A stretch of DNA of 64,000 nucleotides from Alphaproteobacteria bacterium (lineage in GTDB: Bacteria > Pseudomonadota > Alphaproteobacteria > UBA8366 > Aestuariispiraceae), in assembly GCA_024743195.1 (NCBI GenBank), contig JANSXE010000001.1:434001-498000 (forward strand), in the 5' to 3' direction. The position numbers and the translations under genes were made by a program. Under the pieces are notes generated by a model. The model did no database searches. It was not told the DNA's origin and worked only from the letters and a program-made list of their open reading frames with translations. The stretch's first letter is position 1. Every line of letters starts with the position of its first letter. This document shows positions 23,434-42,830 of the stretch, piece after piece.

Positions 23434-25722
23434 CTATTCCGCCGCTTGCGCCGCCTGCTCGCTGTCGCGCAGCAGCTTCAGCATGCGCGGCGGCGACATC
23501 GGGATTTCGGTGGCGCGCACCCGGGCCGCGGCCGAGACCGCATTGGCGATCGCGCCCATCGGCGGGACGATCGAGGTCTCGCCGACCCCGCGCACGCCGT
23601 AGGGGTGACCGGGGTTGGGTTTCTCGACGATCACGGTCTCGATCATCGGCAGGTCGGAGGCGACCGGCACCCGATAGTCCAGGAACCCCGGATTCTCGAG
23701 CTGGCCCTTGTCGTTGTAGATGTACTCCTCGTTCAGAGCCCAGCCGATGCCCTGCGCCGCGCCGCCCTGGAACTGACCTTCGACATAGGCGGGGTTCACC
23801 GCCTTGCCGGCGTCCTGGACGACGGTGTAGCGGACTACGTCGATGCGGCCGGTCTCGCGGTCGATCTGGGCGTCGACGATGTGGGTGGCGAAGCTCGGGC
23901 CCGCCCCCTCGGCGCTGATCTCGTGATGGCCGGCGATCGGGCCGCCCGTCTCGCCCGCCATGGCCGCGATGTCCTTCAGCGTCATCGGCTTGTGGTCGCC
24001 GGCGTTCGGGCCGGAGGGGTGGGCCGCGCCGCCCTCCCACTTCACCGCGTCCGCCGGGATGCCCCAGATCTTGGCCGCACGCTCGCACATGCGCTGCTTC
24101 GCCTGGCGGGCCGCCTGGATGGTGGCGAGGCCGCTGGCGAAGGTGACGCGGCTGCCGTCGGTCACGTCGTTGAAGCCGAGCGAGGCCGTGTCCGCGATCA
24201 CCGCATAGACGTCCTCATAGGCGACGCCCAGCTCCTCCGCCGCCATCGCGCACATCGACGCGCGGCTGCCGCCGATGTCCGGCGTGCCCAGCGACAAGGC
24301 GATGGTGCCGTCGACATTGACGTTGAGCGACACCGCCGTCTGGCCGCCGAAATTGAACCAGAAGCCGCTGGCCACGCCGCGCCCCTGATCGGGGCCGAGC
24401 GGGCTGTTGTAATGCTCCGTCGCCTTGGCCGCCTCCAGCGTCTCCACCAGACCGATCTCGGTGTAGGTCGGGCCGTAGGAGCTCTTGGAGCCGTCGCGCG
24501 CCGCGTTCTTCAGCCGGAAGTCGATCGGGTCCATGCCGATCTCGTCCGCGACCTCGGTGACCACGCTTTCCACCGCGAAGGCCGCCATCGGCGCGCCCGG
24601 CGCGCGATAGGCGGCCTGCTTCGGCCGGTTGGTGACGACGTCGTAGCCGACGGCGCGCACATTCTCCAGTTCGTAGCAGGCGAAAGCCGCCATCGCGCCC
24701 ATATCGACGGGAGAGCCCGGAAAGGCGCCGCCCTGATACTTCAGGACCGCGTCGGCCGCGGTGATGGTCCCGTCCTTCTTGGCGCCGATCTTGACCGTCA
24801 GGCTGGCCGACGCGGTCGGGCCCGTCGCGCGGAACACCTCGTCCCGGCTCATCACGATCTTCACCGGCTTGCCCGCCTTGCGCGACAGCGCGACCGCCAC
24901 CGGCTCGATGAAGACCGTGGTCTTGCCGCCGAAGCCGCCGCCGATCTCGCTCGGCGTGACGCGCAGATTGGAGACCTCCATGCCGAGGAGTTGGGTCACC
25001 GTGTCGCGCACCATGAAGTGGCCTTGCGTGCAACACCACAACTCGCCGCGCCCGTCGGCCCCGATATTGGCGAGGCAGGCGTGCGGCTCGATATAGCCCT
25101 GATGCGCGGCGCCGGTCTTGAACGATCGTTCCACAATCACGTCCGCCGCGGCGAAGCCGGCCTCCACGTCGCCATGGCCGATCTCGACCGTGCCGGCGAC
25201 GTTGGACGGCTTGCCGCCGCCGTACTCATGGCCCAGATCGTCGTGCAGCACCGGCGCGTCCGGCGCCATGGCCAGATCCTCGTCGACGACGTGCGGCAGC
25301 ACCTCGTACTCGACCTCGATCAGCTTCAGGGCCCTGGCGGCGACGCGCGGATCGGTCGCCGCGACGGCGGCGACGGCGTGCCCGTCATAGAGCGCCTTCT
25401 CCCGGGCCATGACGTTGACCAGGATGTCGCGCAGGAAGCGATCCTCCGCGGCGGGCTCGTGGATCGGGAAGTCGTCGCGGGTGACGACCGCCTTGACGCC
25501 GTCCAGCGCCTCGGCCTTGCTGGCGTCGATCTTGACGATCTTCGCATGTGCGTGCGGGCTGCGCAGGATCTTGCCGTGCAGCATGCCCGGCGCGACCGCG
25601 TCGGCCCCGAAGCGGGCCCGGCCCGTCACCTTGTCGACGCCGTCCGGGCGCACGGCCCGGCTGCCGACGACATCGAAGTCGCGCTTCTCGTAATCCTGCG
25701 GAAACTCGGTCTCAAGCGGCAT
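23434..25722 (-). CDS. Molybdenum hydroxylase large subunit (xanthine dehydrogenase family)
   Basis: A 762-residue molybdopterin-binding subunit of the xanthine oxidase/CO dehydrogenase family, hydroxylating a carbon with water as oxygen source. The N-terminal domain a/b-like part runs KVTGRARFGADAVAPGMLHG (31-50). Cofactor motifs include GGGFGGKTTVFIEPVA (261-276), YRAPGAP (372-378) and the catalytic glutamate in GVRGVGETS near residue 710. Form I CO dehydrogenase needs AYxCSFR and form II AYRGAGR; neither is present, so this is another hydroxylase, such as one for an aromatic or N-heterocyclic substrate. It overlaps the 2Fe-2S subunit by 11 bp. No signal peptide is seen. Confidence 0.93.
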   Translation of the reverse strand: MPLETEFPQDYEKRDFDVVGSRAVRPDGVDKVTGRARFGADAVAPGMLHGKILRSPHAHAKIVKIDASKAEALDGVKAVVTRDDFPIHEPAAEDRFLRDILVNVMAREKALYDGHAVAAVAATDPRVAARALKLIEVEYEVLPHVVDEDLAMAPDAPVLHDDLGHEYGGGKPSNVAGTVEIGHGDVEAGFAAADVIVERSFKTGAAHQGYIEPHACLANIGADGRGELWCCTQGHFMVRDTVTQLLGMEVSNLRVTPSEIGGGFGGKTTVFIEPVAVALSRKAGKPVKIVMSRDEVFRATGPTASASLTVKIGAKKDGTITAADAVLKYQGGAFPGSPVDMGAMAAFACYELENVRAVGYDVVTNRPKQAAYRAPGAPMAAFAVESVVTEVADEIGMDPIDFRLKNAARDGSKSSYGPTYTEIGLVETLEAAKATEHYNSPLGPDQGRGVASGFWFNFGGQTAVSLNVNVDGTIALSLGTPDIGGSRASMCAMAAEELGVAYEDVYAVIADTASLGFNDVTDGSRVTFASGLATIQAARQAKQRMCERAAKIWGIPADAVKWEGGAAHPSGPNAGDHKPMTLKDIAAMAGETGGPIAGHHEISAEGAGPSFATHIVDAQIDRETGRIDVVRYTVVQDAGKAVNPAYVEGQFQGGAAQGIGWALNEEYIYNDKGQLENPGFLDYRVPVASDLPMIETVIVEKPNPGHPYGVRGVGETSIVPPMGAIANAVSAAARVRATEIPMSPPRMLKLLRDSEQAAQAAE

Positions 25723-26200
25723 AGTTGCGCCCTCTCATCTCCGCGGCCGCATCCATGACGGCGCGCACGATCTTGTCGTAGCCGGTGCAGCGGCACAGGT
25801 TGCCGGCGAGCCAGTACCGCACCTCGGTCTCGCTCGGATCGGGGTTTTCGGCCAGGAGCGCCTTGGCGGCCACCAGGATGCCCGGCGTGCAGACGCCGCA
25901 TTGCAGCGCCGCATGCTCCAGGAACTTGCGCTGCAGCGGGTGCAGCATCTCGCCCTGGGCCATCCCCTCGATGGTCTCGATCGAGCGGCCCTCGGCCTCC
26001 GCGCCCAGCATCAGGCAGGAGCAGACGATTTTGCCGTCCACACTGACGGTGCAGGCGCCGCAGTCGCCGGTGCCGCAGCCCTCCTTCGAGCCGGTCATGC
26101 CGAGCCGGTCGCGCAGCACGTCGAGCAGCGTCTCCTCGCCGTCGCACAGGAACTCGACCGGATCGCCGTTGATTTCGGTGGTGACGTGGATCTTGGACAT
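25712..26200 (-). CDS. Molybdenum hydroxylase 2Fe-2S subunit
   Basis: A 162-residue small subunit carrying two [2Fe-2S] clusters that pass electrons from the molybdenum centre to FAD. The plant-ferredoxin-type N-terminal cluster has GCGTGDCGACTV with a later CSCL. The C-terminal helical cluster has CGVCTPG and CRCTGY. The ATG at 26200 is favoured, with GGATGAGG upstream; ATG 26209 is possible. The order FAD subunit, 2Fe-2S subunit, Mo subunit matches the coxMSL arrangement. Confidence 0.95.
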   Translation of the reverse strand: MSKIHVTTEINGDPVEFLCDGEETLLDVLRDRLGMTGSKEGCGTGDCGACTVSVDGKIVCSCLMLGAEAEGRSIETIEGMAQGEMLHPLQRKFLEHAALQCGVCTPGILVAAKALLAENPDPSETEVRYWLAGNLCRCTGYDKIVRAVMDAAAEMRGRNYAA

Positions 26201-26205
26201 GGACC

Positions 26206-27063
26206 TCATCCTTTCGCGCGGTCGAGCGCGATCTTGGCCGTACGTTTGGCGAGCGCCCCGGTCACCTGAATGCGGTACTCGCGGGTGCCGCGCTTGTCGT
26301 CGATCGGGGCGGCGGCGGCGGAGGCGGCCTCCGCGAGCGTCGCCAACGCGGCGTCGTCGCCGGTCGTTCCGACCAGCGCCGCGGCGCCCTCCTCGCACCG
26401 GATCACCCGAGGGCCGACGGCGCCCAGGACGACGCGGGCGTCCGCAACCGCCCCGTCCGCGCCCAACGTCAGATTGACGCCGACGCCCACGACGGCGATG
26501 TCCATCTCGGTGCGCGGGATGAAGCGCAGATAGGCGTCGCCGCCGCGATCCGCCTGCTTCGGCAGCAGGATGGAGGCGACGAACTCCCCCGCCTCCAGCG
26601 AGGTCTTGCCGGGCCCCGCCGGCACGTCCTCGACCGGGACGTCGCGCCGGCCGTTCGGGCCGACGATCGACGCGACCGCCCGCGCCGCGGCCAGCGCAGG
26701 CACGCTGTCGGCCGCCGGCGAGGCGTTGCACAGATTGCCCGCGATCGTCGCCCGGCTCTGGATCTGGGTGGAGCCGATCAGGGCCGCCGCCTCGACCACG
26801 CCCGGCCACATGGCCGACAACCCCTCATGCGCGCTCATCTCCGCGCTCGAGACGGCGGCGCCGATGCGGAACCCGCCGCCCTCCGGCTCGATCGTCCGCG
26901 TCTCTTCGATCCGCTTCAGGTCGACCACGAGATCCGGTTCGATCCGCCCGGAGCGGATCGCGACCAGCAGGTCCGTCCCGCCGGCCAGCACCTTCACAAG
27001 GCCCGGTTCGGCGGTCATCGCCTGGACCGCCTCTTCAACCGACGTCGGCGCTGCGTAGCGCAT
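26206..27063 (-). CDS. Molybdenum hydroxylase FAD-binding subunit
   Basis: A 285-residue medium subunit (CoxM-like) that receives electrons from the iron-sulfur clusters. The FAD-binding blocks LAGGTDLLVAIRSG (about 26-39) and IGSTQIQSRATIAGNLCNAS are clear, and the C-terminal CO_deh_flav_C-like domain includes RTEMDIAVVGVGVNL. The ATG at 27063 follows GGAGAGG. It is the promoter-proximal gene of the operon, with five bases between its stop and the next start. Confidence 0.94.
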   Translation of the reverse strand: MRYAAPTSVEEAVQAMTAEPGLVKVLAGGTDLLVAIRSGRIEPDLVVDLKRIEETRTIEPEGGGFRIGAAVSSAEMSAHEGLSAMWPGVVEAAALIGSTQIQSRATIAGNLCNASPAADSVPALAAARAVASIVGPNGRRDVPVEDVPAGPGKTSLEAGEFVASILLPKQADRGGDAYLRFIPRTEMDIAVVGVGVNLTLGADGAVADARVVLGAVGPRVIRCEEGAAALVGTTGDDAALATLAEAASAAAAPIDDKRGTREYRIQVTGALAKRTAKIALDRAKG

Positions 27064-27122
27064 TCGGCCCCTCTCCTCCGCTATCGGCGAGGCCGCGCGT
27101 CCCGCACCGCGCCTCGCCGGTT

Positions 27123-27149
27123 GGTTAATCGGACGTTCATTCAATAACC
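27123..27149. promoter_or_regulatory. Inverted repeat in the hydroxylase operon promoter region
   Basis: GGTTA (27123-27127) and TAACC (27145-27149) flank 17 bp, inside a locally A/T-rich patch 60-86 bp upstream of the first hydroxylase gene. A regulator site is possible, but arms of 5 bp are weak evidence. The rest of the 27064-27335 gap shows nothing. Confidence 0.3.
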
Positions 27150-27335
27150 CGTCCAACCCTGGTGGACGATCCCGTTCGCCCCGTCAAGGGAGAAACCGCC
27201 CGAAACGCCCGTCAGGCTAGGCGTTCAGGGGTGCAGCGCGCGTCCGATCCCGCCGTGGATCGGCCGGATCGCGGCGCCCGCGCCCCGCGCCATTTCTTCA
27301 CTCTAGAACGGCGCTTCGGGGTCGAAAAGGGCCGC

Positions 27336-29756: not shown

Positions 29757-30557
29757 ATGACGTTGATCCGCTGGAGCGAGTTGAAGACGACGGATTTTCC
29801 CGTCGCCGAGCCGGAGCGCACGATTGCGCTCCTGCCGGTCGGCGCGGTGGAGCAGCACGGCCCCCACCTGCCGCTCGGGACAGACAGCCTGATCCTCGAC
29901 GCGGCGCTCGACCGGCTGGCCGACGCGCCGCCGGAGGGCGTGCGCCTTTTGCGCCTGCCGACCCAGGCGATCGGCGACAGCCTGGAGCATCGCGACTTCC
30001 TCGGCACGCTGACCCAGCGCGCGGAGACGCTGATCGCCGCCTGGACGGAGATCGGCCGGGACGTAGCCGCAGCGGGGGTGCGAAAGATCGCGCTGATCAA
30101 CAGCCATGGCGGCCAGCCGCAGATCGTCGACGTCGTCGCGCAACGACTGCGCGCGGAGGCCGGGATGCTGGCGGCGCGCATCAATCTCTACCGCTTCGGC
30201 GCGCCGGAGGGGCTGTTTACCGCCGACGAACTCGCCTTCGGCTATCACGGGGGGGAAGTCGAAACCTCGCTGATGCTGGCGATCGCGCCCGACCTCGTCG
30301 CGATGGATCGCGCGGCCGATTTCGACAACGCGGGGCGCGGCTTGGCCGCGGAGAATGAGGCCTTCCAGGCCGAGGGCGCGGCCGGTTTCGCCTGGCAGGC
30401 GCAGGATTTGAACCCGGCGGGCGCGATGGGGAACGCCGCGGCGGCGGACGCCGAGCGCGGCGCCGCGACCTTGGCTCATCTGAGCGCCCGCCTCGCCCAG
30501 GCGCTGGCGGAGATCGCCGACTTCCCGCTCGACCGGCTGCAGGCGGCCCGCCCGTGA
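29757..30557 (+). CDS. Creatininase-family hydrolase (ArfB/MftE-like)
   Basis: A 266-residue metal-dependent amidohydrolase of the creatininase family, whose members include creatininase, the mycofactocin peptidase MftE and the archaeal FAPy deformylase ArfB. Metal-binding residues are complete: Glu32 and His34 in VEQHGPHLPLGTD, Asp43, His117 in NSHGGQ, and Glu167/Glu169 in GYHGGEVETSLM. The ATG at 29757 follows AAGGGGC. It overlaps the RibD-type gene by 4 bp. In archaea, ArfB and a RibD-like reductase are consecutive steps to flavin and F420, so a deformylase of a pyrimidine formamide is a reasonable guess; the substrate is unproven. Confidence 0.9.
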   Translation: MTLIRWSELKTTDFPVAEPERTIALLPVGAVEQHGPHLPLGTDSLILDAALDRLADAPPEGVRLLRLPTQAIGDSLEHRDFLGTLTQRAETLIAAWTEIGRDVAAAGVRKIALINSHGGQPQIVDVVAQRLRAEAGMLAARINLYRFGAPEGLFTADELAFGYHGGEVETSLMLAIAPDLVAMDRAADFDNAGRGLAAENEAFQAEGAAGFAWQAQDLNPAGAMGNAAAADAERGAATLAHLSARLAQALAEIADFPLDRLQAARP

Positions 30558-31351
30558 CGGCGGGCGCCGGCTTGTTCGATCCCCGCGATCCGGCGGTCGC
30601 CGCCGCCTGGCGCGCGCTGCTGGCGGAGGCTCGGGGCGGACCGCCGGCCATCGGCGAGGGCGTCGCCGCCGCGCTGATCCAGCTCTATCACCCGCTGCTG
30701 GCGCCGCGTCTCGTCCTCGGGCAACTCGGCCAGAGCCTGGACGGCCAGATCGCCACCGCGGCCGGCGCCTCGCACTACGTGACCGGGCCGGAAAGCTTGG
30801 TGCATCTGCATCGCCTGCGCGCGCTGGTCGATGCGGTGGTGGTCGGTTGGCGCACGGTCGCCGCCGACGACCCGCAACTCACCGTCCGGCATGTGGAGGG
30901 GCCGAGCCCGCTGCGCGTCGTCATCGATCGGGCGGGGCGGCTCCCGGCGGACCGGCGGATCTTCGCCGCCGCGCCGCCCGGGTCGGTTCGGGTGACGGCG
31001 CCTGGGACGCCGCCGCTCCCGGGCGTCGAGAGCCTCGCCGCCCCGTTCGACGCCGACGGCCGCGTCGATCCGAAAGCGCTGTGCGCGCTGCTGGCGGCGC
31101 GCGGCTGCGCGCGCGTCCTGATCGAGGGCGGCGGCCGGCTGGTGAGCGGCTTCCTTCAGGCGGGAGCGCTGGACCGGCTGCATGTGAGCGTCGCGCCGCT
31201 GATCGTCGGGGCCGGACGGCCGGGCTTATCGCTGCCCGGCGTCGCGGACCTCGCCGACGCGTTGCGCCCGCCGGCGACGCACTGGGCCATGGGCGCGGAC
31301 GCGCTGTTCGACCTCGACCTCGCCGGAGAGCGGCGCGGGGGCGGGTCATGA
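30554..31351 (+). CDS. Stand-alone RibD-type reductase
   Basis: A 265-residue protein of the RibD C-terminal (dihydrofolate-reductase-like) family, reducing the ribosyl group of an aminopyrimidine to ribityl with NADPH. The core starts PRLVLGQLGQSLDGQIATAA (about 51-70), followed by LRALVDAVVVGWRTVAADDP (about 88-107), LIEGGGRLVSGFL, and a C-terminal PLIVGAGRPG. There is no N-terminal deaminase domain, unlike bifunctional RibD, but about 45 extra residues precede the core. It begins at a GTG that overlaps the stop of the creatininase-family gene (GTGA), and its stop overlaps the next ATG. Coupling with that hydrolase mirrors the archaeal ArfB-ArfC order. Confidence 0.9.
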   Translation: MTAGAGLFDPRDPAVAAAWRALLAEARGGPPAIGEGVAAALIQLYHPLLAPRLVLGQLGQSLDGQIATAAGASHYVTGPESLVHLHRLRALVDAVVVGWRTVAADDPQLTVRHVEGPSPLRVVIDRAGRLPADRRIFAAAPPGSVRVTAPGTPPLPGVESLAAPFDADGRVDPKALCALLAARGCARVLIEGGGRLVSGFLQAGALDRLHVSVAPLIVGAGRPGLSLPGVADLADALRPPATHWAMGADALFDLDLAGERRGGGS

Positions 31352-32049
31352 CGGTCCCGCTGCGCCTCGCCACCTACAACATCCACAAGTTCGTCGGCGC
31401 CGACATGAAGGCGAGCGTCGAGCGCATCCTGCGCGTCGTCGCGGCGCTCGACGCCGACATCCTGGCGATCCAGGAGTTCATGACCGACCGCAAGGGGCTG
31501 GGGATCGCGGACGCGGAGAGCTTCGCGCGCCGCGCCGGCTATCACGTGGTGCAACAGCCGGTGCGCCGGGTCTTCGGGAATTATCAGGAGAACCTGCTGC
31601 TGACGCGGCTGCCGGTGCGGCATGCGCATCTGCTCGATCTGCGCCACCGCCGGGCGGAGCCGCGCGGCGCCATCTGCGCCGAGATCGAGGCGCACGGCAA
31701 GCTCCTGCACGTGGCGGCCACCCATCTGGGTCTCACCCCGGGCGCCCGGCGCCGGCAGTTGGCCCGCATTCTCGACCATTGCGGCGGCCATGAGGGGCAG
31801 ATTTTCGCGCTCTTGGGCGATCTCAACGCCTATCTGCCCTGGGGGCCGGTCGACCGGCGGCTGCGCCGCGAGTTCCGAGGACACGCCCGCCCGGCCAGCT
31901 TTCCGGCGGGACGGCCGGTGCTGCCGCTCGACCGGATCGTGGTCCGGCCGGCGCGGCTCGTCGCGCGGGTCTTCACCCATCAGCACGACCCGGCGCCGCT
32001 GGCGTCCGACCACCTGCCGGTGGTGGCGGAACTCGACCTCAGTCGGTGA
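31348..32049 (+). CDS. Endonuclease/exonuclease/phosphatase (EEP) family protein
   Basis: A 233-residue EEP-fold phosphodiesterase or phosphatase. Family residues are in place: LATYNIHKFVG at the start with the Asn, ILAIQEF with the metal-binding Glu (about 42-44), LLGDLNAYL with Asp and Asn, and LASDHLPVVAEL with the terminal Asp-His. Members cleave DNA, phospholipid headgroups or sugar phosphates, so the substrate is open; in this neighbourhood a phosphorylated intermediate is plausible. The ATG lies inside the stop of the RibD-type gene (ATGA). Its 3' end overlaps the convergent methyltransferase by 11 bp. Confidence 0.88.
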   Translation: MTVPLRLATYNIHKFVGADMKASVERILRVVAALDADILAIQEFMTDRKGLGIADAESFARRAGYHVVQQPVRRVFGNYQENLLLTRLPVRHAHLLDLRHRRAEPRGAICAEIEAHGKLLHVAATHLGLTPGARRRQLARILDHCGGHEGQIFALLGDLNAYLPWGPVDRRLRREFRGHARPASFPAGRPVLPLDRIVVRPARLVARVFTHQHDPAPLASDHLPVVAELDLSR

Positions 32050-32875
32050 GCCGCACCAGCAGATCGGCGTGGCCGACCGTCAGCCGGCCGGCGCCGCGCG
32101 CCGCATGGGCCGCGCGGCGCGCCGCCCAATCGTCGATCGCCGCAGCCCGCGCCGGCGCCGCCTCGCGCGCGGCCGCCGCATAGCCTTCGATCAGCGCGGT
32201 CTGCATCGCCGCATCCGCCGCCCCAAGCCGCCAGGCGCTGTCGCCGCGCTCCACCGCATAGCCGGCGCGTTCGAACGCCGCCGCGAGCGCATCGGGGGCG
32301 TCGGGTCCGAGCGCCTCTCCGAACCCCTTGTCGCGTCGCATATGGCCGTGGAACAGATCTGCGACCTCCGCATCCTCCGGCTCCCGCGGCGTCCAGTCGA
32401 GCCGTCCGTCGACGCTCAGCGCGAAGAGGCCGAGCGGAACCGCCGCGGCGGCGCAGGCGGTCGCGAAATCCTCGACCCAGTCGGCGGAGACCAGATCGAA
32501 CAGCGCGCTGGCGGTGACGAGGTCGCAGCCGGCCAGCGGCAGGCCCGGCGAACCCTTCGCCAGATCCCAACGCATCGTCGCGATCCGGATCGGCGCCGGC
32601 AGGTCGGGCGCCGCGGCCGCGGCCAGCAGGCCGCCGTCGGAATCGACCAGCGTCCAATGCTGCGGCCGGCGCAACCCCGCCGCCAGCCTTGACGCCAGAT
32701 AGCGCAGATTGTTCCCGTGACCCGCCCCCAGGTCCAGCACGTCGACCGCCCGGTCGTCCGCCCCCAACCGCTCCGCCAGCGCTTGCAGAAGCGCGGGCTC
32801 AAGGCCCGCCTCGTCGCGGGCGCGGGCGTCAGCCGCCGCCCGCAGATCGAGCCAATCCGCCTCGAACCCGCTCAT
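32039..32875 (-). CDS. Class I SAM-dependent methyltransferase
   Basis: A 278-residue Rossmann-fold methyltransferase with motif I DVLDLGAGHGNNLRYLA (about 45-61), acidic end of strand 2 WTLVDSDGG, and post-motif DLVTASALFDLVSADWVEDF. The C-terminal half has an Ala-rich helical part and ends GRLTVGHADLLVRLTD. The acceptor is unknown. Its start overlaps the glycosyltransferase stop by 4 bases, and its last 11 bases overlap the convergent EEP gene. It belongs with the glycosyltransferase, PTPS-like and dehydrogenase genes in one operon. Confidence 0.88.
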   Translation of the reverse strand: MSGFEADWLDLRAAADARARDEAGLEPALLQALAERLGADDRAVDVLDLGAGHGNNLRYLASRLAAGLRRPQHWTLVDSDGGLLAAAAAPDLPAPIRIATMRWDLAKGSPGLPLAGCDLVTASALFDLVSADWVEDFATACAAAAVPLGLFALSVDGRLDWTPREPEDAEVADLFHGHMRRDKGFGEALGPDAPDALAAAFERAGYAVERGDSAWRLGAADAAMQTALIEGYAAAAREAAPARAAAIDDWAARRAAHAARGAGRLTVGHADLLVRLTD

Positions 32876-33942
32876 CGCCTCGCCTCCTCAATCGCGCGCA
32901 GCACCCCGGCGAAGCGCGCCGCCTGCGCCGGCCAGGGGCTCAAGGCGTCGCGCGCCCAGCGCGCGCCGGCCGCCAGTTCCGCCCGCAGCGCCCGGTCGCC
33001 CACGGCGCGCCGAAGCGCGTCGGCGAGCGCGGCGACGTCGCCGGGCGGAACCGCCAATCCCGCCTCGGGCGGCAGGGTGTCGGCGAGCGCCCCGCCGGTC
33101 GTCGTCACCACCGGCAGGCCCCGGGCCAGCGCCTCCGTCACCACCATGCCGTAGCCCTCATAGCGCGACGGCAGGACGAAGAGATCGGCGGCGTCATAGG
33201 CGGCGGCGAGTCCGGCCTCGTCCACTTCGCCGCGCCAGGCGACGCGCTCGCTCAGACCCAGCTCCTCCGTCAGACGCCGCACCGCCTCGGCGGTCGGTGG
33301 ATGCAGATCGGCGGCGCCGACGCAGTCCAGGCGCCAGTCAAGATCGGCAAGACGGGCCAAGGCCCGCAAGAGGTCCGCATGCCCCTTGCGCGGAATCAGC
33401 GTGGCCGCGCAGAGAAGCCGGACCCCCGACCCGCGGCCGCCTGACGCCAAGGGCGCGGGATCGACCCCGGGCGCTGCGACCCAAACGGCCGCGGGCTCGA
33501 GCCCGAACGCGCCGAGCCGCCGGGCCGTGAAGGGACTGGTGGCGATCACCGCCGCCGCCTCCGCCAGCGCCGCCCGTTCGCTCTCGAACAGACGTTCGGC
33601 GGCGTCGGGCGACACCCCTTCCTCATCGCACAGCGGATGGTGCACCAGCGCGATCAGGGTCAGGCGCTCCGCATGCCGCGCCGCGATGTCGGGCGCCGCG
33701 CCGAACACCAACCCGTCGACCACGACGAGCGCCCCGTCCGGCGCCGCCGCCAACGCGGCCTCGTAGGCGGCCTGCGCCGCGTCGTCCGGGGCGGGCCAGT
33801 CGCCGGGCAATTCGCGCACCGTCACCGACCGGCCGGCGGCGCGCAGCCCCTCCACCATGCGCCGGTCGTAGATCGAGCCCCCGGTGCGGCGGTCCAGCCG
33901 GCCGGGAACCAGGACATGCAGGCCGCCGTCGCCCCCGCTCAC
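32872..33942 (-). CDS. GT4-family glycosyltransferase
   Basis: A 356-residue GT-B fold retaining glycosyltransferase. The N-terminal half binds the acceptor ([31 protein letters not shown]). The C-terminal half binds the nucleotide sugar and has [40 protein letters not shown] with the E-x7-E pattern, and [12 protein letters not shown]. There is no membrane segment. It starts at a GTG overlapping the PTPS-like stop and ends overlapping the methyltransferase start. In cyanobacteria, glycosyltransferases of this kind modify pterins, which fits the neighbouring PTPS-like gene, but the acceptor is inferred only. Confidence 0.9.
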
Positions 33943-34370
33943 GCCCCCACGCCGGGCAGCGCCCCCTCGCCGGGCAGCGCCCCCTCATAGGAGGCCCAGG
34001 CGACATGACTTTCGCCCAGCGTCACGGTGAGGCCCGTGAGCCCCGCTGCGCCGGGGCCCAGCGCGCCCGCCGCGACGCGCTCCGCCAGCCGGTCGAAGAC
34101 GACCTTGGCCATGAACTCCGTCGTCGTGTTGCAGCCGGCGAACTCGGGCAGATCGTCGAGATTCTTATAGCTGTAGGCGGCCAGGACCTCTTTCAGCGCG
34201 GCGGCGGCGAGACCGATGTCGACCACCAGCCCGTCGCCGTCCAATTCGGGTCGGCGGAAGGCGGCGTCGACCACATAGGTGGCGCCGTGCAGCGCCTGGG
34301 CGGGGCCGAACACCTCGCCCCGGAAGCTGTGGGCGATCATCATGTGGTCGCGGACGGTCAGGCTGAACAT
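33939..34370 (-). CDS. 6-pyruvoyl-tetrahydropterin/6-carboxytetrahydropterin synthase-like protein
   Basis: A 143-residue PTPS/QueD-family protein; family members act on dihydroneopterin triphosphate with a three-histidine zinc site. The fold pattern is clear: HMMIAHSF at 9-16, [12 protein letters not shown] at 27-38, [34 protein letters not shown] with the pterin loop, and [13 protein letters not shown] with the pterin-binding Glu. The canonical HGH zinc motif reads HGA (His28, Ala30), and the usual catalytic Cys four residues before it is Ala. His9 and His14 may replace the missing ligand. An 18-bp perfect tandem repeat (33951-33986) duplicates the C-terminal EGALPG. Chemistry different from QueD is likely. 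Confidence 0.88.
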
Positions 34371-34385
34371 GGGGCTCCTCTCGTT

Positions 34386-35405
34386 CTAGCTCTCCGGCGG
34401 CGCCGCGTAGCGCAGCCTGTGGCACAGGGTCGACGGGTCGTCCGCCAGGCGGGCCATCGCGGCGGGCAGGTCTTCGAAAGCGTCCTCGCCCGTGATCAGC
34501 GCGTCGTAAACCGGATCGCACAGCAGATCGAGCGCCAGCGCCATCCGTCGGCGATGGTCCCAGCGCGCGCGCCGATGCGCCGGCAGCCGACCGACCTGGG
34601 AGGAGATTAGGGTCAGACGGCCGGAATGGAACGCCTCCCCCAGCGGCAGGGCCACGCGCCGGTCGCCGTACCAGGACAGCTCGACGATCCGCGCCTCCAG
34701 CCCGGCGAGCGCCAGCGCGGTCTCGAGCCCCGCCGGATCGCCGCTGGCGTGCACCACGAGATCGCACCCGTCGACAGCCGCTTCAGGCGCGGAGAAATCG
34801 AGACCGAGCGCATCGGCGATCGCGCGCTTGTCCGGATTCACGTCGATCAGTTGGACCGCTGTCCCCGGAACCTGCGCCATCAGGCGCCCCGTCAGGCAGC
34901 CGACCACGCCGGCGCCGATCACCGCGATGCGCTCCCCCGCCAGCGGGGCTGCGTCCCAGCAGGCGTTGAGCGCCGTCTCCATATTGGCCGCCAGCACGGC
35001 GCGGCCGGGCGGCAGCCCGTCGGGCAGCGGATGGGCCGCGTCGGCCGGGACGTCGAACAGATCCTGATGCGGGTGGAGGCAGAAAACGGGGCGGCCGATC
35101 AGGCCCGCCGGCCCCTGCTGCACGGTTCCGACGGCGCTGTAGCCGTATTTCACGGGATAGGGGAAATCGCCCTCCTGGAAAGGCGCGCGCATCGCCTCAT
35201 ATTGAGAGGCCGGGACGAGGCCGCGCCAGACCAGCGTCTCCGTGCCGCGGCTCACGCCGCTGAAAAGCGTGCGGACGCGCACGGCGCCGGGCGCCGGCGC
35301 AGCGAGGGGGCCGCGCCGCAATTCGCCGGTTTCGCGTGCGGCGATCCAGAAGGAGGCGGCCCGGTTTGGGAAGGTCCGGTTTGGGAAGGCGGCGTCTTGG
35401 GTCAT
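34386..35405 (-). CDS. Zinc-type alcohol dehydrogenase-like oxidoreductase
   Basis: A 339-residue medium-chain dehydrogenase/reductase. The N-terminal GroES-like half has GVSRGTETLVWRG and KYGYSAVGTVQQG. The Rossmann half has IAVIGAGVVGCLTGRLMAQ (about 165) and LIDVNPDKRAIADALG. The usual catalytic zinc cysteine and GHE motif of alcohol dehydrogenases are not obvious (GTE occurs where GHE-type residues would be), as in sorbitol-dehydrogenase-like or bacteriochlorophyllide-a-dehydrogenase-like variants. A 15-bp tandem repeat at 35361-35390 gives FPNRTFPNRA near the start. The ATG at 35405 is chosen over an upstream open frame. It is first in the operon, diverging from the CDP-alcohol transferase. 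Confidence 0.85.
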   Translation of the reverse strand: MTQDAAFPNRTFPNRAASFWIAARETGELRRGPLAAPAPGAVRVRTLFSGVSRGTETLVWRGLVPASQYEAMRAPFQEGDFPYPVKYGYSAVGTVQQGPAGLIGRPVFCLHPHQDLFDVPADAAHPLPDGLPPGRAVLAANMETALNACWDAAPLAGERIAVIGAGVVGCLTGRLMAQVPGTAVQLIDVNPDKRAIADALGLDFSAPEAAVDGCDLVVHASGDPAGLETALALAGLEARIVELSWYGDRRVALPLGEAFHSGRLTLISSQVGRLPAHRRARWDHRRRMALALDLLCDPVYDALITGEDAFEDLPAAMARLADDPSTLCHRLRYAAPPES

Positions 35406-35473
35406 GGCGCTCGGCCCCGACGGTCGAGGGAACTGAAACGGACTTAGCCGGCGACAGGAGAGGCCTACCGGGC

Positions 35474-36256
35474 ATGCCGCATGCAAGCGACCATAGCCCG
35501 CCCTTCGCGCTTTTGAAACGCGACGGGCGCCTGACGGCGTCGATCGGGCTGGCCGGCGCGCTGGCGCTCGGAATCGCCTTGATTCCGCTCTTCGGGCTCG
35601 GCTGGACGCAGCCGGCGGCGGCGGCGCTGCTGTTCGCCGCTTTCATGGGGGCGGCGGCGCGCTGGTTGCCGGAACACCTGCCGCATGCCGCGCTCGGCGC
35701 CGCCAATCGGGTCACGGTGCTGCGCGCGGCGCTGGTCGCCAATCTGGGCGCGCTGGCGCTGGCGCCGGAGGCGCTGGCGGCGCACGGCTGGGGCGCGGCG
35801 GCGTTGGCGCTGGGCGCGCTGGCGCTCGACGGCGTGGACGGCTGGACCGCGCGGCGCTTCGGCCTGGCCAGCCCGTTCGGCGCCCGCTTCGATCAGGAGT
35901 TGGACGCGCTGACCATCCTGATCCTGGCCGCGCTCGCCTGGCGGGTGGGCGACGCCGGCGCCTGGGCGTTGCTGGCCGGGCTGCTGCGCTATCTGTTCGT
36001 CGCGGCGCAAGCGGGGCTGCCGAAGTTGCGCGGCGTCCTGCCGCCCTCGCAGCGGCGGCGATGGATCTGCGTCTTCGCCGTATCCGCCCTGATCGCGATC
36101 CTGACGCCGGCCGTGGCGCCGCCGCTCTCGACGGGGCTGGCGGCGGCGACGGTGGCGCTGCTCTCGATTTCCTTCGCGCGCGACATCACATGGTTGCTGA
36201 AACGCCGCCCGAGCGAGGCGGCGAAACGGCATGGGACAAGAGGAGGCTTCGCATGA
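35474..36256 (+). CDS. CDP-alcohol phosphatidyltransferase family protein
   Basis: A 260-residue integral membrane enzyme of the CDP-alcohol phosphotransferase family, transferring a phosphoalcohol between CDP-linked donor and an alcohol acceptor. The catalytic signature D-x2-DG-x2-AR-x8-G-x3-D-x3-D is complete: Asp119, Asp122, Gly123, Ala126, Arg127, Gly136, Asp140, Asp144. About six hydrophobic segments surround it. The length exceeds minimal family members by a long N-terminal membrane portion. The ATG at 35474 follows GGAGAGG. It shares a 68-bp promoter gap with the dehydrogenase operon and overlaps the YceI gene by 4 bp. It could attach the cluster product to lipid; inference. Confidence 0.9.
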   Translation: MPHASDHSPPFALLKRDGRLTASIGLAGALALGIALIPLFGLGWTQPAAAALLFAAFMGAAARWLPEHLPHAALGAANRVTVLRAALVANLGALALAPEALAAHGWGAAALALGALALDGVDGWTARRFGLASPFGARFDQELDALTILILAALAWRVGDAGAWALLAGLLRYLFVAAQAGLPKLRGVLPPSQRRRWICVFAVSALIAILTPAVAPPLSTGLAAATVALLSISFARDITWLLKRRPSEAAKRHGTRGGFA

Positions 36257-36870
36257 CCACCCGGATGACCACCCGATTGACCGCGCTCCTGGCCGCCGGC
36301 GCGATCGCGCTCGCCGGCGCCTTGACCGTGGGCCCGGCCAAGGCCGAGCCGCGCACCTTCACCCTCGACCCCGAGCACCTGCATGTGGCCTTTCTGGTGA
36401 AGCATATCGGCTTCGCCAAGACCTTGGGGATCTTCGAGGATATCGAAGGGACCGTCGTCTTCGACGAAGAGGCCCCGGCGCTGCAGTCGATCGACGTCGT
36501 GATCCAGGCCGACAGCGTCAACACCGGCCACAGGCGGCGCGACAACCATGTGCGCAGCGACGATTTCCTGGCCGCCGACGACCATCCGGAGATCGCCTTC
36601 GCCCTCACCGGCGCGACCCAGACCGGCGAGCGCAACGGAACCGTCACCGGCGATCTGACGATCCGCGGCGAGACCAACCCGGTGACCCTCGACGTCGTCT
36701 GGAACAAGTCCGGGCGCTATCCGTTCGGCGACAAGCAGTACGTCGTCGGGATTTCGGCGCGCGGCGAGATCCTGCGCAGCGACTGGGGCATGACCTACGC
36801 GCTGGACGGCGATCTGGTCGGCGACCGCGTCGAAATCATCATCGAGGCGGAATTGATCCGCGAAGAGTGA
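36253..36870 (+). CDS. YceI-family periplasmic protein
   Basis: A 205-residue YceI protein, a lipocalin-like beta-barrel that binds polyisoprenoid or other amphipathic lipids. A signal peptide covers about 1-32 (LTALLAAGAIALAGALTVGPAKA). The mature protein shows the family strands: FTLDPEHLHVAFLVKHIGFA, ADSVNTGHRRRDNHVRSDDF, GDLTIRGETNPVTLDVVWN. Its ATG lies inside the stop of the membrane transferase (ATGA) with AGGAGG upstream, so the two are coupled. A lipid-binding role beside a phosphotransferase suggests carriage of a lipid product through the periplasm. Confidence 0.93.
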   Translation: MTTRMTTRLTALLAAGAIALAGALTVGPAKAEPRTFTLDPEHLHVAFLVKHIGFAKTLGIFEDIEGTVVFDEEAPALQSIDVVIQADSVNTGHRRRDNHVRSDDFLAADDHPEIAFALTGATQTGERNGTVTGDLTIRGETNPVTLDVVWNKSGRYPFGDKQYVVGISARGEILRSDWGMTYALDGDLVGDRVEIIIEAELIREE

Positions 36871-37856: not shown

Positions 37857-38822
37857 TCAAAGATTGCTGAGCGCATCGAGGGTGCGCAGGATCGCGGGGC
37901 CGATCAGCACGATGAAGAGGCTGGGCAGGATGAAGGTGACCATCGGCACGGTCAGGGTGGCCGGCAGGCGGGCGGCCTTCTCCTCCGCCTTCATCAGCCG
38001 CTCGTCGCGCATCTCGCGGGCCAGCACGCGCAGGGACTGCGCGAGCGGCGTGCCGTAGCGCTCCGCCTGGGCCAGCGTGGAGACCAGCGCGCCGACCGCC
38101 GGAATGCCGGTGCGCGCCTCCAGATTCTCGAGCGCCTGGCGCCGGTCGGAGAGGAAGCCGAGTTCGACCGCGGTCAGCTCCAGCTCCTCGGCCAGATCGG
38201 AGCTGTTGGCGCCGATCTCGCGCGCGACGCGGACCAGCGCCGAATCGAGATTCAGCCCCGCCTCCGTGCAGATCACCATCAGGTCGAGCGCGTCGGGCAG
38301 GGCGCGGCTCATCCTCTGCCGGCGCTTGTCGGCCGCGTTCTTGAGATAGAGATCCGGCGCGAAGAAGCCGAACAGCACGCCGCCGACCGAGGCGATCAGC
38401 TTGCCGTTCGAGGACAGGCTCCACAGGTCCAGCCCGTAGGTCAGAAGCGCCGCGACGCCGCCCAGCGCCAAGGGGGCCGCGAGCTTGACCGTCAGGAACA
38501 CCGGCACCGCATCGCGCGAGCGCACGCCGGCGCGGTTGAGCTTGAGCTGCGCCTGTTTCGCCGTCTCGCCGCTCAAGAGCTTGAGCCGCCGCGCCACCTG
38601 CTTCGACAGGCTGACGCCGCCGTCCATCAGGCCGCGACGCTTGGGCTGGCGCAGCTTCCGGCGCAGGTCGTCGCGCCGGTCGATGATCGCGCGGGCGCGC
38701 CGGGCGGACGGCCCGCGCTCGGTCAGGCCGAGCCATACGGCGGCCGTCCCCGCCGCCGCCGACACGCCGGCGGCGAGCGTGGCCATCGCATCCGCGCCGA
38801 GGCTCGTCAGGAGGTCGAGCAT
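37857..38822 (-). CDS. tadC: Tad pilus inner-membrane platform protein TadC
   Basis: A 321-residue GspF-type membrane protein, one of two platform subunits that turn the ATPase motion into Flp pilus assembly. A T2SSF domain covers about 160-290 (ALPDALDLMVICTEAGLNLD, GTPLAQSLRVLAREMRDER). Hydrophobic segments lie near 10-30, 110-155 and at the C-terminus (VPMVTFILPSLFIVLIGPAI). The ATG at 38822 follows AGGAGAG. It is 102 bp downstream of tadB, the only long gap in the pilus operon. Confidence 0.92.
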   Translation of the reverse strand: MLDLLTSLGADAMATLAAGVSAAAGTAAVWLGLTERGPSARRARAIIDRRDDLRRKLRQPKRRGLMDGGVSLSKQVARRLKLLSGETAKQAQLKLNRAGVRSRDAVPVFLTVKLAAPLALGGVAALLTYGLDLWSLSSNGKLIASVGGVLFGFFAPDLYLKNAADKRRQRMSRALPDALDLMVICTEAGLNLDSALVRVAREIGANSSDLAEELELTAVELGFLSDRRQALENLEARTGIPAVGALVSTLAQAERYGTPLAQSLRVLAREMRDERLMKAEEKAARLPATLTVPMVTFILPSLFIVLIGPAILRTLDALSNL

Positions 38823-38924
38823 GGCGGCTCTCCTATCGGACCGCACCGGGGGAAGCGCGGATGCGCAGCAGCGCGCACCCCCGATCGTTGAGCGTAGAGG
38901 CGCATCATCCTGTTCGCCCCTCCC

Positions 38925-39935
38925 TCAAATGTCGAACCGCACCATCTTGGCCATGACCATGACCCCGACGGCGATCGAGCCGAGCCCGATCCCGATCATC
39001 ACGTGGCCGCGCGGGTCGGTGAACAGCTCCATCACATAGGGCTGGTTCACCAGATAGATGATCGAGAACATCACGAAGGGCAGCGAGCCCAGGATGTAGG
39101 CGCTGGCCCGCGCCTCGGAGGAGACGGCGCGAATCTTGAGCTTCATCTGCCGGCGCTTGCGCAGGATCTCGGAGAGGTTCTCCAGCGTCTCGGTCAGGTT
39201 GCCGCCGGTCTCTTTCTGGACCGACAGCGTGATGGCGAGGAAGCGCAGCTCCGGCACCGCCATGCGCTTTGCCGTACGCTCGATCGCCGCCTCCAGCGGG
39301 TGGCCGATGCGCACCAGGTCCGCGATCTCGCGGAACAGGCCGGCGACGGGCTCGTTCGCCTCGCGCCCGACGGCGGCCATGGATTCGGAGACCGGCAGGC
39401 CCGCCTTCAGCCCGCGTACGATGATGTCGATCCCCTCCGGCAGGTTTTTCAGGAAGGCGGCCTCGCGCCGTTTCGCCTTCCAGCCGAGGAAAGCGTGCGG
39501 CAGCGAAACGCCGGTTCCGAGCCCGAGCAAGAGCGCCGCCGCAGGCGGCGCGCTTTGCGTCAGGAGGAGCGCCATCGTCGCAACCAGCGCCAGCCCGGCG
39601 CTGATCGCGAAATAGACGCCCAGCCCGCCGGGATAGCCCGCGCGCTGCAGCCGGGTGCGCAGCAGGTCGCGACGCGGCAGCAGGCGCACCCATCCGGCCG
39701 CCGGCCGATGGTCGGCCGCGCGCAAGCTGGGCCGCTTGCCGGCGTCGGTCGCCGCCGGCCGCGCCGTCTGGGCGACCCGGGCGATGCGCGCGCTGCGCCG
39801 GCGGCGCGCGCGGGCCAGCGCGCCTTGCAGGCTGGCCGCCGCGATCAGCACGGCGATCGCGGCCAGCAGCACGATCAGCGTCTCCAGGAACTGCGGCGGC
39901 AGGTCGTCGATCAGCCGGTCGAGGAGCGTCGTCAT
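38925..39935 (-). CDS. tadB: Tad pilus inner-membrane platform protein TadB
   Basis: A 336-residue GspF-type membrane protein, the partner of TadC. It starts with a hydrophobic helix (LIVLLAAIAVLIAAASLQG), then a basic linker. The T2SSF core spans about 170-290 (LPEGIDIIVRGLKAGLPVSE, KETGGNLTETLENLSEILRK, the usual GGN loop). It ends with two helices (FVMFSIIYLVNQPYVM, VMIGIGLGSIAVGVMVMAKM). It is 18 bp downstream of the ATPase gene. Confidence 0.94.
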   Translation of the reverse strand: MTTLLDRLIDDLPPQFLETLIVLLAAIAVLIAAASLQGALARARRRRSARIARVAQTARPAATDAGKRPSLRAADHRPAAGWVRLLPRRDLLRTRLQRAGYPGGLGVYFAISAGLALVATMALLLTQSAPPAAALLLGLGTGVSLPHAFLGWKAKRREAAFLKNLPEGIDIIVRGLKAGLPVSESMAAVGREANEPVAGLFREIADLVRIGHPLEAAIERTAKRMAVPELRFLAITLSVQKETGGNLTETLENLSEILRKRRQMKLKIRAVSSEARASAYILGSLPFVMFSIIYLVNQPYVMELFTDPRGHVMIGIGLGSIAVGVMVMAKMVRFDI

Positions 39936-39953
39936 CGCGCGTCCTCCCGCCCC

Positions 39954-41612
39954 TCAGCTCACCGCGTCGAGCAGCGGCCGCTCCAGCCCGAAATAGGCCG
40001 CTTTCTCCGCGAAATGGGGCCGCACGCCGGCCGGCTCGAAGGTTCCGATCAGGCGACCGTGGCGATCCTCCCCCTCATAGCGGTAACGGAACAGCTCCTG
40101 TGTGGTGACGATGTCGCCTTCCATGCCGACGACCTCGGTGACGGAGATGATCCGGCGCACGCCGTCGCGCATCCGGCTGACCTGGACGATCAGGTCGAGG
40201 GCCGAGGCGATCTGGGTGCGCACCGCCTTCGCCGGCAGATTGATGCCGGCCATGCCGACCATGTTCTCCAGCCGGGTCAGCGCCTCGCGCGGGTTGTTGG
40301 CGTGCACCGTGCACATCGAGCCGTCATGGCCCGTATTCATGGCCTGCAGCATGTCGACGGCCTCGGAGCCGCGCACCTCGCCCAGGATGATCCGGTCGGG
40401 CCGCATGCGCAGCGCGTTCTTCACCAACCCGCGCATGGTGACCTCCCCCTGCCCTTCCAGGTTCGGCGGGCGCGTCTCCAGGCGCACGACATGGGGCTGC
40501 TGGAGTTGCAGTTCGGCGGCGTCTTCGATGGTGACGATGCGTTCGGTCGTGTCGATCATGCGGCTCAAGGCGTTCAGGAGCGTGGTCTTGCCGGAGCCGG
40601 TGCCGCCGGAGATCAGGATGTTGAGACGCGCGCGCGCCGCGATCTGCAGGACCCGCTCCATCGGGGCGGAGATGTTGCCCTGGCGGCTCATCACCTCGAG
40701 CGTGATCTTCTTCTCCGAGAACTTGCGGATCGAGATCGCCGCGCCGTCGATGGCGAGCGGCGGGATGATGATGTTGACGCGGCTGCCGTCCTCCAGGCGC
40801 GCGTCGCACATCGGCGAACTTTCGTCGACGCGGCGGCCGATGCGGGTGACGATGCGGGTCGCGATCGCCATCAGATGCTTCGCGTCGCGGAAGGCGACGT
40901 CGGTCAGCTCCAGCTTGCCGCCGCGCTCGACATAGACCTGTTGCGGGCCGTTCACCAGGATGTCGGTGACGCCCTCGTCGGCCAACAGCGATTCGAGCGG
41001 CCCCAACCCCAGCATGTCGTTGACGAGCAGGGTTACGAGGTCGCGCTGCTCCAGCGAATTGAGGCGCAGCCCCAGATCGCGCATCAGCTCCGGCAGCAGC
41101 GCCTCGACCTCGCCGACGAGCTCCGCGCGGCTCAGCTTCGCGGCGGCGGTCGCGTCGATCTGATCCATCAGGACGGCGCGAAGCTGCTCGGCGGCCGCTT
41201 CGACGCTGGCCCGGCTGGCGCCCCGGCCGTCGCGCCGCTCGCCGCCGGCAAGCTCGGCGATCGTGCGGGCGGGCCGGCCGCGCGCCGCGGACGACGCCGC
41301 CGCATCCTGCGACGCCGCCGACGGTTCGGGATGCGCCTCGGCGGCGCGGTTTCGCGCCAGATGCCCGTTCAGCAACTCCGTCACCAGGTCGCGCTGCTGC
41401 AGCGGGTTGAGGGTCAGCGCCTCGGCCGCCACGACCTCCGCGACCAGCGCGCGCACGCGCTCGGCCTGCTCGCCGCGCGGCGCGTCGGGGCGCTCGGCCA
41501 AGAGCGCGTCCGCGCGCTCCTGCAGGGCGCGGCGCAGCGCGGTCGGATCGCGCCCCGCCTCGCCCCGCTCCTTGCGGTTCACGCGGTTGGCGATGTCGCT
41601 CACCAGAGCCAT
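39954..41612 (-). CDS. cpaF: Tad pilus assembly/secretion ATPase CpaF (TadA)
   Basis: A 552-residue cytoplasmic secretion ATPase that powers Flp pilus assembly and retraction. Walker A is GGTGSGKTT (336-344); Asp boxes and Walker B lie in RIILGEVRGSEAVDMLQAM, with GHDGSMCTVHAN after it. GPLESLLADEGVTDILVNGP opens the second N-terminal domain. Two similar helical segments occur, LNPLQQRDLVTELLNGHL (68-85) and LNSLEQRDLVTLLVNDML (184-201), an internal duplication that explains part of the extra length over usual homologues (about 450-500). The ATG at 41612 follows GGAGGCG and overlaps the cpaE end by 13 bp. Confidence 0.95.
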   Translation of the reverse strand: MALVSDIANRVNRKERGEAGRDPTALRRALQERADALLAERPDAPRGEQAERVRALVAEVVAAEALTLNPLQQRDLVTELLNGHLARNRAAEAHPEPSAASQDAAASSAARGRPARTIAELAGGERRDGRGASRASVEAAAEQLRAVLMDQIDATAAAKLSRAELVGEVEALLPELMRDLGLRLNSLEQRDLVTLLVNDMLGLGPLESLLADEGVTDILVNGPQQVYVERGGKLELTDVAFRDAKHLMAIATRIVTRIGRRVDESSPMCDARLEDGSRVNIIIPPLAIDGAAISIRKFSEKKITLEVMSRQGNISAPMERVLQIAARARLNILISGGTGSGKTTLLNALSRMIDTTERIVTIEDAAELQLQQPHVVRLETRPPNLEGQGEVTMRGLVKNALRMRPDRIILGEVRGSEAVDMLQAMNTGHDGSMCTVHANNPREALTRLENMVGMAGINLPAKAVRTQIASALDLIVQVSRMRDGVRRIISVTEVVGMEGDIVTTQELFRYRYEGEDRHGRLIGTFEPAGVRPHFAEKAAYFGLERPLLDAVS

Positions 41613-42823: not shown

Positions 42824-42830
42824 CGCCGCC

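Follow-up and report, generated by a model that had tools for sequence, protein, structure and literature searches.

What could a creatininase-family hydrolase, a RibD-type reductase, a glycosyltransferase, a PTPS-like protein and a CDP-alcohol phosphotransferase be making together? Genes for these and for four further proteins lie side by side in a 64,000-nucleotide stretch (the window) of an alphaproteobacterial genome of the family Aestuariispiraceae (GenBank assembly GCA_024743195.1, contig JANSXE010000001.1, positions 434,001 to 498,000). The original prediction saw in eight of them an undescribed pathway to a glycosylated, perhaps lipid-anchored conjugate of a GTP-derived pyrimidine or pterin. 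All eight genes are intact and lie where it placed them, and its enzyme families hold by Pfam or structure models, with reservations on the labels "zinc-type" dehydrogenase and PTPS. Considering our findings, the locus belongs to a widespread, conserved and, it appears, unsolved biosynthetic cluster. The GTP-derived precursor is well supported, while the lipid link is only suggested, although made more likely by a flippase gene. The pathway itself can still be called undescribed, but two of its Streptomyces members had been studied before. Among the matches listed in the open-licence literature that we searched, none described the pathway or a pterin linked to lipid.

The prediction was to be given up if its genes proved scattered in relatives, and they are not. 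We compared 111 related loci, 62 from Actinomycetota, 31 from Alphaproteobacteria and 18 from Gamma- and Betaproteobacteria, the last including a Proteobacteria metagenome-assembled genome with no class given (L106); three other loci were excluded, namely L033, from the genome already represented by L049, L037, with GT4 but not the other genes, and L043, an orphan PTPS-like gene. The order dehydrogenase-PTPS-GT4-methyltransferase, hereafter the core, was kept in 101 of the 111, across Alpha-, Beta- and Gammaproteobacteria and Actinomycetota, as well as in the window; the remaining ten had split matches, contig ends, or a gene that was moved or not found. The core is accompanied by a CDP-alcohol phosphotransferase in 92 loci, an MprF-type flippase in 78, GTP cyclohydrolase II (RibA) in 78, a RibD-type reductase in 63 and a creatininase in 54. 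When the proteins of a set of 101 loci and the window were clustered, these five and the core four made up the top nine families, each present in 41 to 86 loci; the tenth reached 22 loci, its displayed members all being from Streptomyces. YceI was found in 16 of the 111 loci and a sulfatase-like gene, named from a sequence record and encoding a protein without Pfam or NCBIfam match, in 19.

The same linkage is seen across genomes. The PTPS-like gene (E<=1e-6) and the GT4 orthologue (E<=1e-50) occurred together in 13 of 142 alphaproteobacterial genomes and both were absent from 127, leaving one genome with GT4 alone (G070) and one with PTPS alone, at a contig end (G053); the Fisher p of 2e-16 is for related and thus not independent genomes. 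Near the GT4 orthologue in 13 other alphaproteobacterial genomes, the PTPS-like gene and the methyltransferase were found in 12 and the dehydrogenase in 11. A genome of the same genus (G142, locus L197) carries the full window set in identical order, including YceI and the endonuclease/exonuclease/phosphatase-family (EEP) gene, the latter found only in L197 and L124 among the 111 loci.

The best evidence for what the pathway consumes comes from the upstream enzymes. The core enzymes are alike everywhere, while RibA, RibD and the creatininase are of several origins and have been joined to the core repeatedly, which argues that the pathway uses their product. From this convergent recruitment, the starting point would quite probably be a GTP-derived ribosylaminopyrimidine. 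In the tree, cluster RibA sequences formed three sets, consisting of a clade with Met or His at the position of E. coli Tyr105, one of Micromonosporaceae, and proteobacterial sequences interspersed with copies from outside clusters, with E. coli RibA not placed between cluster groups. Their union in a single clade was rejected (approximately unbiased (AU) test, p 2e-32; 48 cluster rows, after thinning of near-identical ones, versus 29 non-cluster rows with the cluster copy L301 left out; at least 6 changes). Cluster RibD sequences fell into two clades, one of the Micromonosporaceae type, and a single clade was again rejected (AU p 2e-4; 52 versus 18 rows, 12 near-identical rows thinned and L251, L252, L233, L253 and L256 excluded), although the three changes may be one gain and two losses. 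For the creatininases the rejection was weak (AU p 0.017, 55 versus 28 rows; 0.036 for the proteobacterial ones alone) and the branches were long. In S. tendae (L108) the cluster has no RibD match, yet a relative of the second RibD clade type is encoded elsewhere in the genome.

The window reductase itself scores 126 bits against the RibD_C cut-off of 24.1, without reaching the TIGR00227 domain model (132.4 versus 150.15). It carries conserved GQSLDG, DDP-LTVR and EGGG motifs, falls in a clade separate from housekeeping RibD, and has as its top PDB match a 2,5-diamino-6-ribosylamino-pyrimidinone phosphate reductase (6p8c). Because GTP cyclohydrolase II is a frequent member of the cluster, we tie this reductase to GTP-derived pyrimidines. 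The window genome has two cyclohydrolase copies, both on contig C31. One is an intact separate RibA (L129, G000:C31:106117-106578) with its zinc cysteines kept and Tyr at the E. coli Tyr105 position; the other, degenerate, belongs to a longer protein, probably RibBA (L130, G000:C31, around 177303-177779), with a cyclohydrolase part lacking the zinc cysteines. L129 groups with the Micromonosporaceae cluster RibA (100/100) together with L300 (G028:C1:1621872-1622297), and the clusters of both genomes lack RibA. As a lead rather than a test, these two may be the pathway's own cyclohydrolase, located outside the cluster.

The PTPS-like protein supports a ring-binding role less simply than the original prediction assumed in stating that PTPS proteins act on pterins. 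It does pass the Pfam PTPS model (81 versus a cut-off of 22.4), but falls below NCBIfam QueD (39.2 versus 89.25 bits), and a pterin role is not simply transferable to a protein that is missing the PTPS signatures. Subfamilies I to III of COG0720 are defined by CxxxHGH, CxxxxxHGH or ExxHGH, and the function of PTPS-V is described as unclear (PMC5041015). Among 112 sequences, i.e. those of the 111 relatives and of L043, there was no HGH, CxxxHG or CxxxxxHG, and ExxHG occurred in four at a different site; judged by these signatures, the protein falls outside PTPS-I, II and III. Instead, 109 of the 112 carry GPAQ-x-x-HGA, with GPAR in two and GSAQ in the orphan L043, and His14, His28 and Glu120 were invariant in all 20 sequences aligned. 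In PDB, a single sequence matched at E<=0.001, namely 3d7j, SCO6650 of Streptomyces coelicolor (E 2.8e-58 over 132 residues), and with its FGPAQxxHGAT motif (FGPAQ-LHGAT shared with SCO6650), invariant Glu120 and close similarity to 3d7j, the window protein fits this SCO6650-type subfamily. Unlike it, SCO6650 is from a different phylum and stands as a lone protein structure, named "uncharacterized" in PDB. The structure paper (Acta Cryst. F, 2008) is said to have found no zinc, no catalytic triad and no PTPS activity.

For the rest of the core, similarity gives mostly the class of enzyme. The methyltransferase scores just under Pfam cut-offs (26.4 versus 27), and its model (predicted local distance difference test score, pLDDT, 95.6) matches by Foldseek class I methyltransferases, many of small-molecule types, which places it in a broad class only. 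The best PDB matches of the GT4 protein are Tll1590, an inositol-phosphate glycosyltransferase and PimB-type enzymes. The dehydrogenase, with no Pfam match at E<=0.001, has the medium-chain dehydrogenase/reductase (MDR) fold in its model (pLDDT 88.6), and structure search again gave the broad class only, with RspB and threonine, L-idonate and butanediol dehydrogenases among the top matches. The usual zinc motifs of MDR enzymes are Cys-Gly-x-Asp and Gly-His-Glu. Where these would stand, Ser51-Arg52-Gly53, Glu55 and Lys85-Tyr-Gly-Tyr88 are invariant in 21 of 21 dehydrogenases (66% mean column identity over the 21 rows). Judged by these motifs, the enzyme would depart from the zinc-dependent type, against the label "zinc-type".

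The CDP-alcohol transferase and the flippase, joined in some loci by YceI, suggest a lipid-linked product, and we regard attachment to a membrane lipid as evenly poised on this gene content. CDP-alcohol phosphotransferases are marked by the motif D-x2-DG-x2-AR-x8-G-x3-D-x3-D, which was invariant in 19 of 19 sequences and is complete in the window; among solved structures, choline phosphotransferases and PssA are its closest relatives. The enzyme may use the lipid as donor or as acceptor. In 74 of the 111 loci, the genes for the flippase and the methyltransferase are adjacent and share a strand, and the two cluster flippases examined exceed the Pfam cut-off for LPG_synthase_TM and match MprF/TIGR00374 models. 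The YceI gene adjoins the CDP-alcohol transferase in 10 of the 111 relatives.

Putting these together, the cluster could be a branch of riboflavin/pterin metabolism making a methylated, glycosylated pyrimidine or pterin on a membrane lipid, a scheme to which we give at best even chances. Gene order, conservation, family membership and motif loss are what the sequences show, and from these we infer every chemical step. In this pathway, GTP cyclohydrolase II, supplied in the window genome by a separate copy, would open GTP to a ribosylaminopyrimidine phosphate, the creatininase homologue would strip formate from any formylated intermediate, and the RibD-type reductase would convert the ribosyl to a ribityl chain without deamination. 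The PTPS-like protein, with its invariant Glu and two His, would then bind the ring and cooperate with the dehydrogenase and methyltransferase in building the head group, to which GT4 would attach a sugar. The CDP-alcohol phosphotransferase would couple the product to lipid via a phosphodiester, and the flippase, in the cluster of most relatives, would turn it outward, where YceI may bind it in the periplasm. More tentatively, and with somewhat less confidence than in the scheme itself, a new class of molecule can be envisioned: a pterin- or ribityl-pyrimidine-headed glycophospholipid made from GTP, flipped to the outer leaflet, bound by YceI and perhaps acting as a membrane redox carrier, common to Proteobacteria and Actinomycetota. 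A cytochrome b561-type gene lies within the retrieved stretch of four of the 111 loci.

The deformylation step is one for which related systems offer models. Archaeal ArfB and the archaeal/fungal-type reductase carry out deformylation and then ribosyl reduction ahead of deamination. The same order is proposed for the window, and the 6p8c match is in keeping with it; riboflavin, however, is not the end product expected here, and the window creatininase is far under the ArfB cut-off (NF033501, 15.4 versus 180 bits), so that by model score it is not ArfB, the relative invoked in the original prediction. It is likewise below the equivalog cut-offs for MftE (TIGR03964, 105.8 versus 172) and creatininase, and other cluster creatininases also score low with NF033501 (Streptomyces 37, Salinicola 19). 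The Streptomyces RibA SCO6655, whose switch position (that of E. coli Tyr105) is occupied by Met, reportedly stops at the formylated intermediate (Spoonamore et al., 2006). Met stands at this position in 31 cluster RibA, from Streptomycetaceae and one Amycolatopsis, adjoining the same core, whereas the window cluster lacks RibA and the intact copy of the genome has Tyr. SCO6655 is listed under riboflavin metabolism (PMC2853524), GTP cyclohydrolase II activities are said to differ among three Streptomyces isogenes (PMC3509567), and BrbF of S. meliloti is described as a proven FAPy deformylase of the creatininase family (PMC9478397). BrbF is, like the window protein, alphaproteobacterial, and the two are likened by family membership; unlike it, BrbF serves the synthesis of riboflavin and is encoded, in Rhizobiales, next to genes for MarR and CobW (PMC9478397). 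By analogy, a deformylase role of the creatininase is plausible in the Streptomyces clusters. Within Actinomycetota, every one of the 39 loci whose RibA bears Met (31) or His (8) as the switch residue carries a creatininase, compared with none of the 13 with Tyr.

Several findings weigh against the pathway as proposed. The 39-to-0 contrast amounts to one evolutionary event, since the Met/His RibA form one clade. All 12 Gamma- and Betaproteobacterial cluster RibA have Tyr and yet a creatininase is present, so the rule that a creatininase accompanies a formyl-producing RibA fails there and was rejected; all 13 alphaproteobacterial cluster RibA have Tyr, none with a creatininase. Among the 31 alphaproteobacterial loci, a creatininase occurs in three, all without RibA, and EEP in two; the window cluster, too, combines a creatininase with no cyclohydrolase. 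The window creatininase groups in the tree among homologues from other genomic contexts. The window cluster contains neither GTP cyclohydrolase II nor the flippase, and the single LPG_synthase_TM protein over the cut-off in this genome is just 23-25% identical to the two cluster flippases. RibA is missing from 33 of the 111 loci and RibD matches from 48, some of these being contig ends (the weak cyclohydrolase match in L032 is within the count of 78 but outside the residue table of 77). Donor and acceptor of the CDP-alcohol transferase are not readable from the sequence. Finally, loci were selected from the best match downwards by their similarity to PTPS or GT4, which partly fixes the counts of these two in advance and gives Streptomyces more than its share.

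The same data can be read in other ways. The product might be soluble, a glycosylated pterin or ribityl-pyrimidine destined for export or serving in signalling or light absorption; this would require identical upstream chemistry, with the transferase and flippase serving another step. Some loci, e.g. L036 (near a contig end), L065 and L096, have the core four without transferase or flippase matches, and the PDB matches of GT4 include, weakly (E 2.7e-4), a tetrahydrobiopterin glucosyltransferase, which recalls the pterin-glucoside (BGluT) pathway, where a GT4-like enzyme acts on a pterin. The frequency of the CDP-alcohol transferase (92/111) and flippase (78/111), and the place of the latter by the methyltransferase on the same strand (74/111), make a soluble product rather unlikely.

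It could also be argued that the product of the core four is a glycolipid in which nothing derives from GTP, and that RibA, RibD and the creatininase are neighbours boosting the flavin supply for it. RibD_C genes are indeed common (in 17 of 21 genomes of the class, with 10, 26 and 12 matches in three actinobacterial genomes), and some loci lack both RibA and RibD. Against this, however, stand a PTPS fold within the core itself and the fact that RibA and RibD were recruited repeatedly, each from different lineages, and no lumazine or riboflavin synthase was noticed among the families in at least four loci, not all of which were annotated; we find such a glycolipid improbable. That a standard pathway has been mislabelled, be it queuosine or tetrahydrobiopterin synthesis through PTPS, or mycofactocin, which shares a creatininase-family protein (MftE) and a glycosyltransferase, is hardly credible. 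Most annotated plasmid records do label the PTPS-like gene 6-carboxytetrahydropterin synthase, and MftE is the top NCBIfam match of the creatininase, but the QueD and MftE scores given above are below the cut-offs, HGH is missing from all 112 sequences, and no further Mft model matched among the window proteins scanned. The lipid-linked, GTP-derived product remains our preferred reading.

A common bacterial compound would then apparently have escaped description. One genome collection yielded at least 585 confirmed stretches with a PTPS-like gene of the SCO6650 type; in the best 80 of these, whose neighbourhoods were checked, and in annotated plasmids, the cluster reaches Streptomyces, Micromonospora, Actinoplanes, Actinomadura, Amycolatopsis, Halomonas, Salinicola, Marinobacter, Thauera, Methylosinus and Agrobacterium. 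Solving the pathway would explain what the protein of the SCO6650 structure and the odd Streptomyces cyclohydrolase do, and would correct the 6-carboxytetrahydropterin synthase annotations. The PTPS-like gene is on 20 plasmid records, and of eight neighbourhoods viewed, seven had all or most of the core and one was the orphan. This last, on a Streptomyces anthocyanicus plasmid (L043, 10001-10426), lies by MEKHLA and cupin genes, the other cluster genes not being found in the stretch. The distribution is patchy even within the family of the window genome (PTPS in 5 of 14 genomes), yet G+C content gives no sign of a recent transfer into the window (0.73-0.74 in the cluster, 0.70-0.72 in flanking DNA).

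Table 1. Genes of the locus, with positions in the window
Product	Position	Strand	Evidence
Creatininase-family amidohydrolase (putative formamide hydrolase)	29757..30557	+	Pfam Creatininase 223 bits
RibD-type reductase, reductase domain alone found	30554..31351	+	Pfam RibD_C 126 bits
EEP-family hydrolase, accessory	31348..32049	+	Pfam Exo_endo_phos 58 bits
Class I S-adenosylmethionine (SAM) methyltransferase, core	32039..32875	-	Structure model and Foldseek; 108/111 loci
GT4 glycosyltransferase, core	32872..33942	-	Pfam Glyco_trans_1_4 106 bits; 108/111 loci
PTPS-like T-fold protein, SCO6650 type, core	33939..34370	-	Pfam PTPS 81 bits; 3d7j match
MDR dehydrogenase without usual zinc motifs, core	34386..35405	-	MDR fold; 110/111 loci
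CDP-alcohol phosphotransferase	35474..36256	+	Pfam CDP-OH_P_transf 49.6 bits; 92/111 loci
YceI-family protein, accessory	36253..36870	+	Pfam YceI 147.6 bits

The nine genes, all intact, fall into three groups, creatininase-RibD-EEP (+), dehydrogenase-PTPS-GT4-methyltransferase (-) and CDP-alcohol transferase-YceI (+), and four-base overlaps at five junctions (creatininase/RibD, RibD/EEP, methyltransferase/GT4, GT4/PTPS and CDP-alcohol transferase/YceI) make it likely that these are three co-expressed groups. The YceI gene that the prediction put at the end of the locus is of that family, but it runs beyond the end given there, 36256. Of the Pfam scores in Table 1, those for Creatininase, RibD_C, Exo_endo_phos, Glyco_trans_1_4, PTPS and CDP-OH_P_transf exceed the respective cut-offs. 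Start codons in Table 1 are our choice, and the proteins used in the initial family searches were slightly longer or shorter at their starts. Rfam, at the gathering score, matched tRNA alone in the window and seven relatives, with no riboswitch, and a defence system was rejected, since PADLOC gave just one weak methyltransferase match (mad2, E 9e-7). Around 14 non-cluster creatininases there was no common neighbouring family except an ABC-transporter ATPase-like gene, in five; near two non-cluster creatininase homologues (L219 and L223), a gene resembling adenine phosphoribosyltransferase was seen by eye. Also by eye, three genes adjoining the cluster at 23434-27156 (-) resemble the large, 2Fe-2S and FAD subunits of a xanthine/CO dehydrogenase-type molybdenum enzyme, and genes at 37857-42850 (-) resemble Tad/Flp pilus assembly proteins.

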